Below, in pieces: positions 5,501 through 7,191 of a DNA stretch of 34,962 bases. Positions within the stretch are counted from its first letter, which is position 1; every line of letters begins with the position of its first letter. A model generated the notes under the pieces. It searched no databases and had not been told where the DNA came from. It worked only from the letters and a program-made list of their open reading frames with translations. Location of the stretch: assembly GCA_019638615.1 (NCBI GenBank), contig JAHBTL010000052.1, positions 1 through 34,962 on the forward strand, read 5' to 3'. The translations under genes and the position numbers were made by a program. The stretch is from Chitinophagaceae bacterium (lineage in GTDB: Bacteria > Bacteroidota > Bacteroidia > Chitinophagales > Chitinophagaceae).

Positions 5501-5575
5501 GGGAGCATAGCTCAGTTGGTTCAGAGCATCTGCCTTACAAGCAGAGGGTCCGCGGTTCGAGCCCGTGTGCTCCCA
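5501..5575 (+). tRNA. tRNA-Val (anticodon TAC)
   Basis: A complete cloverleaf can be drawn. Acceptor GGGAGCA (5501-5507) pairs with TGCTCCC (5568-5574), with discriminator A at 5575. The D-arm stem is GCTC/GAGC. The anticodon arm is TCTGC-CTTACAA-GCAGA, with anticodon TAC at 5536-5538. The T-arm is CGCGG-TTCGAGC-CCGTG at 5551-5567, with one G-T pair. CCA is not encoded. A consensus promoter lies upstream and an intrinsic terminator starts 11 bases downstream. Its 3' half is copied several times in the array that follows. Confidence 0.96.
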
Positions 5576-5585
5576 CAGATGAACT

Positions 5586-5617
5586 GGTTTTGATTATTGC
5601 TATCAAAACCTTTTTTT
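5586..5617 (+). terminator. Intrinsic terminator of tRNA-Val
   Basis: GGTTTTGAT (5586-5594) pairs perfectly with ATCAAAACC (5602-5610) around a 7-base loop and is followed by seven Ts. It begins 11 bases after the tRNA and ends three bases before the ATG of the first GIY-YIG copy, so that ORF lies beyond the terminator. Confidence 0.9.
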
Positions 5618-5620
5618 ATT

Positions 5621-5862
5621 ATGTGGACTTTTTACATTCTTTACTCTGCCGGTCTTGACAAATACTACATTGGCTGCACTGGTGATGAGTTGCAGCAACG
5701 GCTTCGCAGGCATAATACTAAGCACAAAGGATTTACCGGGACAGTTAATGATTGGATAGTTGTGTATACTGTAGTTTTTGCAATGATAGTAAACTGGTGG
5801 CCTTGAACGTAAAACGGCAAGAGCTGGGAAAAGCAGGGATAGGTTGAAGGAAGTTTTTCATT
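5621..5862 (+). pseudogene. GIY-YIG nuclease copy 1 (3' part decayed)
   Basis: The first 149 bases match intact copy 4 (YILYS and KYYIG motifs present). After GTGTATAC the sequence diverges with substitutions and indels. The reading frame ends at 5806 after 61 codons with VVFAMIVNWWP, before the ERERQVK segment that should hold the metal-binding glutamate. Recognisable remnants of that lost part (AGAGCTGG, AAAGCAGGGATAGGTT) continue to about 5850. I call it a pseudogene because the catalytic end is missing. The sharp change from perfect to poor identity suggests that the 5' part was refreshed by recombination. Confidence 0.85.
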
Positions 5863-5935
5863 GATGTGGGGTCTAGAGATCCCCAGCCTTGCTGGAGGTC
5901 CTCCATGTCTGGGTTCGTGTGGCATCTATTAGATA
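5863..5935 (+). repeat. Decayed tRNA 3'-half tail of unit 1
   Basis: This stretch lies where units 3 and 4 carry the tRNA-like tail. It keeps CCAGC-CTT-GCTGG at the anticodon-arm position, then GAGGTCC and TTCGTGTGGC in place of the T-arm and acceptor strand. The T-arm no longer folds. Identity to tRNA-Val is low, so the assignment rests on position and the retained hairpin. Confidence 0.5.
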
Positions 5936-5945
5936 ATATGGAACT

Positions 5946-5977
5946 GGTTTTGATTATTGCTATCAAAACCTTTTTTT
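5946..5977 (+). terminator. Copy of tRNA terminator before GIY-YIG copy 2
   Basis: The same 9-bp hairpin (GGTTTTGAT/ATCAAAACC) and T7 run as behind the tRNA, three bases before the copy 2 start codon. It would end transcripts coming from unit 1. Confidence 0.8.
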
Positions 5978-5980
5978 ATT

Positions 5981-6295
5981 ATGTGGACTTTTTACATTCT
6001 TTACTCTGCCGGTCTTGACAAATACTACATTGGCTGCACTGGTGATGAGTTGCAGCAACGGCTTCGCAGGCATAATACTAAGCACAAAGGATTTACCGGG
6101 ACAGTTAATGATTGGATAGTTGTGTATACCGAAGTTTTTACTGATAAAACTGCGGCTCTTGAACGGGAACGGCAGGTTAAGAGCTGGAAAAGCAGGGATA
6201 GGTTAAGAAAGCTTATTGATGGTTCAGAGCATCCCGCTTCCAAGGAGGGTAATAATGGTCCACAGGTTCGCCCGTGTGCTCCTAACAGATTATGA
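5981..6295 (+). CDS. GIY-YIG nuclease, copy 2 (with tRNA-tail read-through)
   Basis: A 104-residue single-domain GIY-YIG protein. The fold signature is YILYS (residues 5-9) and KYYIG (14-18). The conserved arginine is in LQQRLRRHN and the catalytic glutamate in [21 protein letters not shown]. This is the short UvrC/URI-like class, a DNA nicking or cleaving fold. The first 82 or so codons match copy 4. The end differs: the tail lacks the usual stop, so translation runs through tRNA-derived sequence and adds about 20 residues (ASKEGNNGPQVRPCAPNRL). I start at the ATG (5981) right after the terminator. The longer TTG-started frame would begin inside the hairpin. No own promoter is visible. Confidence 0.8.
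   Translation: MWTFYILYSAGLDKYYIGCTGDELQQRLRRHNTKHKGFTGTVNDWIVVYTEVFTDKTAALERERQVKSWKSRDRLRKLIDGSEHPASKEGNNGPQVRPCAPNRL
6221..6291 (+). repeat. Diverged tRNA 3'-half tail of unit 2
   Basis: It begins with GGTTCAGAGCATCCCGC like units 3 and 4. It then departs (TTCCAAGGAGGG, an inserted AATAATGG) before rejoining at CAGGTTCGCCCGTGTGCTCC, which resembles the T-loop and acceptor strand. It lies inside the reading frame of copy 2. Confidence 0.6.
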
Positions 6296-6331
6296 AAACC
6301 TGGTTCTGTAGATTTCCGTCAAGTATCGTGC

Positions 6332-6594
6332 TTTTATTATACTCTTATCTTTTTATACTCTGCCGGTCTTGACAATACTTTGCCATAATATTGTACCAGT
6401 GATGGTTGCAATTATTTCGCAGGCATAATACTAAGCACAAAGGATTTACCGGGACAGTTAATGATTGGATAGTTGTGTATACCGAAGTTTTTACTGATAA
6501 AACTGCGGCTCTTGAACGGGAACGGCAGGTTAAGAGCTGGAAAAGCAGGGATAGGTTAAGAAAGCTTATTGATGGTTCAGAGCATCCCGCCTAA
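6332..6594 (+). pseudogene. GIY-YIG nuclease copy 3 (5' part decayed)
   Basis: The 5' part is only recognisable by scattered words (ACTCTGCCGGTCTTGAC, TACCAGTGATG). The start codon is lost (ATTATAC in place of ATTATGT), the KYYIG motif is destroyed, and the hairpin terminator before it has decayed. From 6419 (GCAGGCATAATAC) the sequence is identical to copy 4 down to the stop at 6594. This is the mirror image of copy 1, whose 5' part is intact and 3' part decayed. No functional product is expected. Confidence 0.85.
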
Positions 6595-6630
6595 GCGGGA
6601 GGGTCCGCGGTTCGAGCCCGTGTGCTCCCA
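6574..6630 (+). repeat. tRNA-Val 3'-half copy, tail of unit 3
   Basis: 57 bases. The D-arm 3' side (GGTTCAGAGCATC), variable region, T-arm (6606-6622) and acceptor 3' strand with discriminator A (6623-6630) are identical to tRNA-Val. Only the anticodon arm differs: TCCCGC-CTAA-GCGGGA replaces TCTGC-CTTACAA-GCAGA, yet it remains a perfect stem. The TAA of the loop is the stop codon of the GIY-YIG ORF. No 5' acceptor strand is present, so this is not a tRNA gene. Confidence 0.9.
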
Positions 6631-6640
6631 CAGATGAACT

Positions 6641-6672
6641 GGTTTTGATTATTGCTATCAAAACCTTTTTTT
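6641..6672 (+). terminator. Copy of tRNA terminator before GIY-YIG copy 4
   Basis: Perfect 9-bp hairpin and T7 run, identical to the tRNA terminator. It follows the unit 3 tail by 10 bases, so a transcript of copy 3 would end just as the tRNA transcript does. Confidence 0.85.
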
Positions 6673-6675
6673 ATT

Positions 6676-6936
6676 ATGTGGACTTTTTACATTCTTTACT
6701 CTGCCGGTCTTGACAAATACTACATTGGCTGCACTGGTGATGAGTTGCAGCAACGGCTTCGCAGGCATAATACTAAGCACAAAGGATTTACCGGGACAGT
6801 TAATGATTGGATAGTTGTGTATACCGAAGTTTTTACTGATAAAACTGCGGCTCTTGAACGGGAACGGCAGGTTAAGAGCTGGAAAAGCAGGGATAGGTTA
6901 AGAAAGCTTATTGATGGTTCAGAGCATCCCGCCTAA
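6676..6936 (+). CDS. GIY-YIG nuclease, copy 4 (intact)
   Basis: The cleanest copy, 86 residues from the ATG at 6676. The domain covers nearly the whole protein: YILYS at 5-9, KYYIG at 14-18, RLRRH at about 28-32, and [12 protein letters not shown] at about 66-77 with the metal-binding glutamate. Known single-domain GIY-YIG proteins of bacteria (YhbQ/URI-like) are 80-100 residues, so the length is normal. The last codons (GSEHPA, then TAA) lie in the tRNA-like tail. Expression probably depends on read-through of the terminator four bases upstream, because I see no promoter in the unit. The biochemical role of this short class is not established; DNA cleavage is inferred from the fold. Confidence 0.85.
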
Positions 6937-6972
6937 GCGGGAGGGTCCGCGGTTCGAGCCCGTGTGCTCCCA
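6916..6972 (+). repeat. tRNA-Val 3'-half copy, tail of unit 4
   Basis: Identical over all 57 bases to the unit 3 tail, with the same altered anticodon-arm hairpin and tRNA-Val T-arm and acceptor strand. It is followed by the same CAGATGAACT spacer and terminator. Confidence 0.9.
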
Positions 6973-6982
6973 CAGATGAACT

Positions 6983-7014
6983 GGTTTTGATTATTGCTAT
7001 CAAAACCTTTTTTT
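6983..7014 (+). terminator. Copy of tRNA terminator before GIY-YIG copy 5
   Basis: Fourth perfect copy of GGTTTTGAT/ATCAAAACC plus T7, three bases before the copy 5 start codon. Confidence 0.85.
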
Positions 7015-7017
7015 ATT

Positions 7018-7191
7018 ATGTGGACTTTTTACATTCTTTACTCTGCCGGTCTTGACAAATACTACATTGGCTGCACTGGTGATGAAATGCTGCAACGACT
7101 TCACAGGCACAATACTACTGTAAAAAGACTGATTAAAAAGCCTGAAAATATTTTAATAAAGATAGCAAAAATACTACCTTTATACAGCTAA
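7018..7191 (+). pseudogene. GIY-YIG nuclease copy 5 (3' truncated)
   Basis: The first 67 bases match copy 4. From 7085 it differs at many positions (GATGAAATGCTGC against GATGAGTTGCAGC), and from about 7113 homology is lost. The frame closes after 57 codons with an unrelated lysine-rich end. The glutamate-bearing helix is missing, so nuclease activity is unlikely. It is the last unit and has no tRNA-like tail. The hicAB pair begins 20 bases after its stop, so insertion or deletion associated with hicAB probably removed its end. Confidence 0.8.

Follow-up and report, generated by a model that had tools for sequence, protein, structure and literature searches.

A minimal GIY-YIG element, common in Bacteroidota, that probably inserts within tRNA genes and rebuilds them

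The stretch of DNA analysed here (the window, 34,962 nucleotides) is one whole contig (C48; JAHBTL010000052.1) of the 7.18-Mb draft genome of a Chitinophagaceae bacterium (GCA_019638615.1, 87 contigs). Behind its tRNA-Val(TAC) gene lies a series of five units with short genes for a GIY-YIG nuclease. The series is probably an array, decayed in part, of a minimal mobile element, frequent in Bacteroidota, that inserts within a tRNA gene and rebuilds the tRNA. In its full form the element contains the 3′ half of a tRNA with a terminator, a single gene for a one-domain GIY-YIG endonuclease, and a short stretch derived from the tRNA together with a palindromic hairpin.

During insertion, the 5′ half of the recipient tRNA would be joined to the 3′ half of the element and the tRNA would remain whole, and the native 3′ half and terminator of the recipient would be shifted downstream behind the hairpin, as a pseudo-tRNA. 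A still empty tRNA gene of the matching isotype would be cut by the nuclease in or close to the segment replaced by the hairpin, and the break would be repaired from a DNA copy carrying the element, which would amount to homing without an intron. Judging from sequence, the element looks as if it worked like a free-standing homing endonuclease element. Through the repeated 3′ halves and terminators, arrays could expand or shrink by homologous recombination, perhaps aided by renewed cutting of the intact tRNA.

Probable insertion within the tRNA gene

In a test on the genus of genome G170, 150 genomes were queried with the DNA behind the pseudo-tRNA of locus L110, and 23 of them matched. The tRNA-Ala gene was empty in 12 of the 23 matching pieces and occupied in 6 (one with two copies), and 5 pieces could not be assigned. 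Ten empty tRNA-Ala loci were read by eye, and in all of them a terminator of the ACCCTTGTAAA...TTTACAAGGGT type or a close variant directly followed the tRNA. At four occupied loci (L287, L292, L299 and L313) the intact tRNA was followed by an element-linked AAATACCC...GGGTATTT terminator, and the ACCCTTGTAAA-type terminator was found behind the pseudo-tRNA, clearly as a variant in L299. Furthermore, the intact and the displaced 3′ halves of L313 (genome G565) were different alleles (T-stem ATCGG/CCGAT vs ACCGG/CCGGT), which is expected if the element brought its own 3′ half. The empty and occupied tRNA-Ala genes of this one genus indicate an insertion inside the tRNA gene, by which the native 3′ half and terminator appear to have been displaced behind the hairpin. 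Unrelated sequences (score 30 or less of 140) also followed the two 3′ halves in 18 of the 58 loci compared, for example L011, L031, L041, L091, L110 and L123.

Occupied and empty tRNA genes were also found among close relatives of the window. The same locus in the sister species G399 (on a contig of 231,192 bases) holds one complete unit, of which the protein is 100% identical and 337 of 342 bases are equal to those of unit 4 in the window; behind it come a pseudo-tRNA and a terminator, and then the beginning of another copy that is cut short by a deletion into the hicB-like gene. In the congener G396 (L188), tRNA-Val and a terminator like that of the window are present, with no GIY-YIG gene behind them. 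The tRNA-Asp gene is occupied in genome G000 (L010) and empty in G399 (L256), with upstream DNA 85% identical. Conversely, tRNA-Met is occupied in G399 (L223) and has no gene behind it in G000 (L247), and hairpin-marked tRNA-Met remnants precede the tRNA in both genomes. An empty site was also sought via the neighbouring MlaD gene, and the four congeners with this gene (L219-L222) have no tRNA there.

Hairpin-marked pseudo-tRNAs

Hairpins were counted in the 62 loci of the common layout (intact tRNA, gene, pseudo-tRNA) in which the 3′ end of the pseudo-tRNA could be aligned; 15 loci of a mirror layout were kept outside these counts. A TCC(C)G...C(G)GGA hairpin was present in 52 of the 62 pseudo-tRNAs and in none of the 62 intact tRNAs, and among the controls it occurred in 0/62 coding stretches of the same length, 1/59 downstream stretches and 0/59 upstream stretches. 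For the 52 pseudo-tRNAs with the hairpin, the junction was taken as the last and first matching base of each tRNA. Its position was constant in tRNA-Met (37/38 to 48/49 in 8/8) and tRNA-Asp (50/51 to 59/60 in 7/7) and mostly constant in tRNA-Ala (27 to 45 in 5/6) and tRNA-Gly-gcc (48/49 to 57/58 in 6/8). According to these positions, the replaced segment is therefore the whole anticodon arm or only the 3′ side of it, or else the T-arm in its 5′ part. The pseudo-tRNA is without this isotype-specific segment, whereas the intact tRNA keeps it.

In the mirror layout, which was found at Ser tRNAs in 8 of its 15 loci, the gene stands before the intact tRNA and is itself preceded by 5′ tRNA pieces, some of them hairpinned. 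Arrays of hairpin-marked tRNA pieces without a gene were found in L024, L041, L061 and L067. The one in L061 (1864-2616), behind tRNA-Pro(GGG), has five units that are exact copies and some that have decayed, each about 107 bp long and composed of a terminator, a D-arm piece, a TCCCG hairpin and a tRNA 3′ half, and a GIY-YIG gene stands before the tRNA; this gene-less array looks like a non-autonomous form. In L041 (1853-2131, minus strand), and also in L024, L067, L098 and L132, tRNA 5′ parts with the hairpin are repeated in short tandem arrays upstream of the intact tRNA, the unit length being about 75-115 bp; in arrays of this type the duplication affects the opposite side of the same junction.

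Palindromes were observed in other settings too. In L058 (985-1935, minus strand; locus partly N), copies of tRNA-Arg carry the palindrome CCTGCCTGCCGGCAGGCAGG as a clean insertion at two places, one close to the D-loop and one close to the anticodon loop. Inside the loop of a larger inverted repeat in G000 (L147:1501-1516 and L152:1501-1516) lies the palindrome TCCCGAAACTTCGGGA, as if palindromes inserted into hairpin loops. Dispersed TCCCG palindromes exceed a reversed-pattern control in many Bacteroidota genomes, for example with 202 vs 2 in G011. RAYT transposases (repetitive extragenic palindrome (REP)-associated tyrosine transposases) pair with REP palindromes, and it could be imagined that the palindrome is here likewise the mobile unit, with the GIY-YIG protein as a transposase-like partner and tRNA loops as preferred landing places. 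This dispersal, the single hairpin type shared by the pseudo-tRNAs of many isotypes, and the weakly greater number of palindromes in gene-bearing genomes of two genera of family f18 (86 genomes; one-sided p 0.022 and 0.025, ancestry uncorrected) speak for such a system. However, the excess is not universal, the control being higher in G037 (8 vs 28) and G166 (21 vs 66), the correlation comes from one family, and palindromes are also present without the gene. As in REP/RAYT systems, dispersed palindromes occur beside a nuclease gene, but the nuclease fold of RAYT differs and the link to dispersal here is a weak correlation only. We consider a REP-like system very unlikely, although the palindrome counts keep it under consideration without establishing it.

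Linkage to tRNA genes and isotype tracking

Matches to the protein at an expectation value (E) of 1e-5 or better were found in 187 of 395 Bacteroidota genomes, including 11 of the 12 genomes of the genus of the window. The 138 loci studied were the best and some hand-picked ones among the matches listed, rather than all matches of the 187 positive genomes; six redundant loci (L002-L005, L036, L051) were omitted beforehand, L064 gave no domain match, and a minus-strand piece of L141 was dropped. In 86 of these loci a tRNA on the same strand ends 4-140 bp (median 52) before the domain, and in a further 15 a tRNA starts from 80 bp before to 66 bp after the gene end, which gives 101/138 loci with a same-strand tRNA before the domain within 150 bp or at the gene end. 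An upstream tRNA on the opposite strand was found in none of the 138. Among the remaining 37 loci, 9 have a tRNA 174-269 bp upstream, 16 start no more than 430 bp from the end of a contig, L042 stops 76 bp short of one, and the tRNA of L135 sits between its two genes. Ten of the 37 were read by eye: fragments of tRNAs were recognized in eight, weakly in L048, and the two others, L008 and L009, are members of a different GIY-YIG subfamily. This subfamily served as control (L008, L009, L257-L286; about 100 amino acids, Bacteroidota, in 41 of 99 genomes at E 1e-12), and none of its 30 loci examined was near a tRNA.

A named set retrieved with the window protein, which includes isolates of Algoriphagus, Belliella, Aquiflexum and Cognataquiflexum, had a tRNA nearby in 18 of 26 loci; in L173, one of the 18, this tRNA is a doubtful selenocysteine (SeC) call. 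The family may also extend beyond Bacteroidota: a homologue with tRNA-Ala and a hairpin-marked pseudo-tRNA was found in a metagenome-assembled genome (MAG) of Acidobacteria (L183), and another, preceded by a tRNA-Asn-like 3′ half, in a Syntrophales MAG (L182), a binning error being possible in such cases.

To relate the nucleases to their tRNAs, a tree was built from 131 domains (rows with >60 domain positions) and 77 columns, in which 63 of 127 inner branches were left open. The tRNA isotype needed 26 changes over the 105 labelled rows, and shuffled labels needed 74.6 on average, with 0 of 200 shuffles as low; host family needed 44 changes, a figure given without a shuffle comparison. Met required 1 change and Asn 3, each spanning four or more host families.

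The tie of each clade to one isotype, and the pseudo-tRNA with its altered anticodon arm or T-arm, would also suit a nuclease that acts on the tRNA itself or on invading DNA, as an anticodon nuclease or an anti-phage protein, with the pseudo-tRNA serving for regulation or as a decoy. But no family of the PADLOC collection matched the window protein (0 at E 0.1), which also sets aside a known defence system; the fold is one of DNA nucleases, and the pattern of insertion, like that of presence and absence among relatives, is what a mobile element shows. An RNA-directed or defensive role is thus very unlikely.

The sequence-only reading of the window had proposed that the gene goes with a piece of its tRNA neighbour, as a minimal mobile and array-forming element that targets tRNA 3′ ends. 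The association with tRNAs relative to the control, which held among the better matches, and a tree that follows isotype agree with the first part of this proposal. A lack of enrichment next to tRNA genes, which that reading had named as a refuting outcome, was not observed among these matches. Mobility is borne out by occupied and empty tRNA genes in close relatives, where empty tRNA-Val, -Asp, -Met and -Ala genes were all found, and by the tandem arrays described below. The target, on the other hand, has to be corrected to an isotype-dependent position inside the tRNA gene, from which the element displaces the native 3′ half and terminator; this insertion inside the tRNA and the hairpin at the junction had been missed.

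The GIY-YIG protein and array formation

The reading frame of unit 4 in the window contains the GIY-YIG domain PF01541 (E 8.3e-16). Residues Y4, Y15, R26, H30 and E62, which we take to be the catalytic residues of the domain, were invariant in 24 of 24 homologues. The ratio of nonsynonymous to synonymous substitutions (dN/dS) was 0 to 0.45 in pairs of at least 60% identity where it could be computed, which means purifying selection; for the pair of the window and G399, dN was 0 and dS 0.08. The structure model had a mean predicted local distance difference test (pLDDT) score of 84.8 and no second domain. Sequence profiles matched UPF0213 (1zg2, 1ywl) and Slx1 structures. A fold search of the model against the PDB returned no match at E 0.001 or better, the best being 1zg2 (E 0.017) and the catalytic domain of I-TevI, 1ln0 (E 0.24). 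I-TevI has a separate DNA-binding part; the GIY-YIG domains of UPF0213, Slx1 and I-TevI are similar by profile or fold, and the window protein has no second domain within its 86 amino acids. The window protein had no match in NCBIfam or PHROGs, and carriage by phages or plasmids was rejected after it found no match in phage records, plasmid records or viral contigs.

At least two units (each with at least 60 domain positions) were present in 28 of the 138 loci; the spacing was mostly 315-390 bp, and the number of units reached 8 in L130. Tandem copies also occur in isolates such as Algoriphagus kandeliae (L016/L178). For such arrays to arise, it is enough that the repeated 3′ half and terminator undergo unequal recombination.

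The array behind tRNA-Val(TAC)

The array in the window is genuine, with five units arranged head to tail (Table 1), although the number five rests on one draft contig and is not proven. Repeat analysis of the window gave a tandem repeat at 5544-7117 with a period of 342 and 4.5 copies, and units 2 and 4 share 97.9% identity across 339 columns, far above chance. An assembly artefact was rejected, as the units differ by decay and the same layout occurs in genomes listed as one contig (L066, L068 and L111) and in isolates. The anticodon arm of tRNA-Val(TAC) occurs once in the assembly, with up to 3 mismatches allowed.

One tRNA-Val followed by five units, each with the tRNA 3′ half, a terminator and a nuclease gene, had been described from the letters alone. 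The tRNA-Val(TAC), the tandem array and the GIY-YIG domain stand, but the units are not each complete: the full frame of 86 residues is kept by units 2 and 4 only. Likewise, the 32-bp terminator is present in four exact copies and a fifth is absent before unit 3. In units 3 and 4 the repeated tRNA part differs from a simple 3′ half, as it begins in the D-arm and has the palindrome TCCCGCCTAAGCGGGA in place of the anticodon stem-loop; the tRNA-derived copies that follow units 1 and 2 have decayed and do not contain this palindrome. Unit 4 is the best copy. The last residues of its protein, GSEHPA, are derived from the tRNA-like D-arm sequence, and its stop codon falls in the loop of the palindrome, which takes the place of TCTGCCTTACAAGCAGA in the tRNA. 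The frame of unit 2 extends further, because the decayed pseudo-tRNA behind it lost the stop codon.

Table 1 Coordinates of the tRNA gene and of the five units in the window
Feature	Position	Strand	Remark
TATCTTTG, Bacteroidota-type promoter-like -7 element before the tRNA	5457..5464	+	Sole TAnnTTTG on the + strand of 5401-7200; use presumed
Intact tRNA-Val(TAC)	5501..5576	+	Rfam match RF00005
Terminator (hairpin plus T-run) after the tRNA, separated by 3 bases from the unit 1 ATG	5586..5617	+	
GIY-YIG gene of unit 1, broken	5621..5836	+	One TGA and one TAA inside
End of unit 1, tRNA-derived, decayed	5904..5945	+	Repeat family D1, 86% over 5904-6139; weak
Terminator, copy 2	5946..5977	+	
GIY-YIG gene of unit 2, 86 residues and read-on into the decayed pseudo-tRNA	5981..6295	+	
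Pseudo-tRNA behind unit 2, decayed, without palindrome	6220..6290	+	
GIY-YIG remnant of unit 3, residues 23-85 (N-terminal 22 gone)	6403..6594	+	
Pseudo-tRNA behind unit 3, hairpin TCCCGCCTAAGCGGGA at 6585-6600	6573..6632	+	
Terminator, third exact copy	6641..6672	+	
GIY-YIG gene of unit 4, intact, 86 amino acids (ATG 6676); TAA 6934-6936 in hairpin loop	6676..6936	+	
Pseudo-tRNA behind unit 4: D-arm piece, hairpin 6927-6942 replacing the anticodon arm, tRNA 3′ half	6915..6974	+	
Terminator, fourth exact copy	6983..7014	+	
GIY-YIG gene of unit 5, cut down to residues 1-36 of 85; frame continues to 7191	7018..7117	+	

The motif TAnnTTTG before the tRNA is presumably a promoter -7 element of the Bacteroidota type. 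It is the only such site on the + strand of 5401-7200, and the gap of just 3 bases from terminator to ATG is too short for a promoter; the nuclease is therefore likely expressed by read-through from the tRNA, which would hold it at a low level. The array is followed at 7211-7797 by two genes with weak Pfam scores, one of them HicA-like (PF07927) and the other HicB-like with a helix-turn-helix.

Evidence weighing against the proposed insertion

A number of observations weigh against insertion within the tRNA gene followed by homing. That the nuclease cuts the tRNA gene is something we infer from sequence. The intact tRNA beside the element retains the presumed target, and self-cutting must therefore be tolerated or avoided. 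Homing endonucleases usually have a DNA-binding part, whereas the window protein is a bare catalytic domain of about 85 amino acids. The hairpin pattern was missing in 10 of the 62 pseudo-tRNAs, and a stem of at least 6 bp alone separated the two classes more poorly, being present in 55/62 pseudo-tRNAs and 24/62 intact tRNAs. The junction was scattered in tRNA-Asn (36 to 47 in 4/7) and tRNA-Val (28 to 46 in 4/7). On the tree, Val, Asp and Arg needed 5 changes each and Ala and Pro 4 each, and did not form single clades; the counts of changes over all isotypes therefore mean that nuclease lineages keep an isotype long, not for ever.

The terminators are also less uniform than a simple insertion would have them. 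Within the window, native and element-borne terminators cannot be distinguished. The strict pattern of the native terminator was found in 8/12 empty and 3/6 occupied pieces of the G170 genus. In the same genus, L075 has the element terminator behind both 3′ halves, which is array-like and does not fit a simple insertion, and L093 has a third terminator behind both, with the native type at neither place. In loci such as L021, L078, L093, L104, L124 and L141 both terminators are alike and the similarity ends soon after, which fits a local duplication; such loci could have arisen by local duplication, conversion or a close donor.

Loci with like terminators would also be in line with an ordinary host gene, for example for repair, that resides beside tRNAs and whose tandem duplication left tRNA pieces as by-products. 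Purifying selection and the tandem arrays would suit such a gene as well. However, the gene is present and absent at the same tRNA among congeners, the terminators behind the two 3′ halves are unrelated in 18 of the 58 loci compared, the native terminator is displaced at tRNA-Ala, isotype is tracked across host families, and the hairpin sits at a fixed tRNA position. A host gene is thus unlikely, and insertion of a mobile element within the tRNA gene is preferred.

Comparison with known systems

The nearest tested precedent, by analogy and as far as the excerpts of the two papers go, is SegB of phages T4 and T6, a free-standing GIY-YIG homing endonuclease of the tRNA region reported to cut inside tRNA genes and to drive tandem amplification of tRNA segments by homologous recombination (PMC13096335, PMC2988022). 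In the excerpted parts of one of these reports, amplification required intact catalysis and the recombination functions of the phage, and the motif RAWTSGAAC was found at 23 of 83 sites (PMC13096335). By our reading, the motif is similar to the T-loop in its complementary strand, and in the Asp and Gly families described above it is this region that has been replaced. Like the element of the window, SegB is, in these excerpts, a GIY-YIG nuclease adjoining tRNA genes; unlike it, SegB is phage-borne and lies between tRNA genes in T4, and neither rebuilding of the tRNA nor a hairpin-marked pseudo-tRNA is described in the excerpted text (PMC13096335, PMC2988022). The window protein had no match in PHROGs, phage records or viral contigs, and no direct comparison with SegB was made. 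Excerpts from the open-licence literature describe no GIY-YIG elements inside or beside bacterial chromosomal tRNA genes, which is no proof of novelty.

Group I introns with homing endonucleases likewise invade bacterial tRNA genes and leave the tRNA functional. However, they restore it by RNA splicing, whereas the element of the window would rebuild it at the DNA level with the 3′ half it carries; an intron was rejected here, as Rfam found only RF00005 (tRNA) at the locus. In integrative elements that use tRNA sites, a carried piece of the tRNA restores the gene and a partial copy is left at the far end. The rebuilding of the tRNA by a carried 3′ part, typical of such elements, could suggest that the unit is a remnant or passenger of one of them, for example one with a tyrosine recombinase, and that the GIY-YIG gene is incidental. 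Unlike these elements, the unit of 342 bp has room for the gene of 86 amino acids only and no integrase inside (the search for one covered the unit, not the flanks of the relatives), and its junction lies inside the tRNA at an isotype-specific position with a hairpin mark. Its nuclease is under purifying selection and follows isotype. This is the least likely of the alternatives weighed here.

Implications

Beyond the window, it is possible, though less likely than not, that such elements form an integrase-free class of chromosomal elements spread over the phylum or perhaps more widely, in which each GIY-YIG lineage is devoted to one isotype, enters that tRNA at an isotype-specific position and rebuilds it with its own 3′ half (or, in the mirror layout, its 5′ half), the displaced half being sealed by a palindrome that is perhaps REP-like and moved by the same nuclease. 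If true, this would be selfish DNA that persists in essential genes by taking the place of part of their sequence. The proposed element itself would show how essential genes can be invaded with neither integrase nor intron, the missing half being carried along and handed back. It would account for the short GIY-YIG genes beside tRNAs and the partial tRNA copies in Bacteroidota, and it would supply a bacterial, non-phage counterpart to the tRNA amplification driven by SegB. It would also offer a natural range of minimal nucleases that are already sorted by the tRNA they target; the segment removed by each family would predict the position of the cut, and the specificity of these nucleases should therefore be directly testable.

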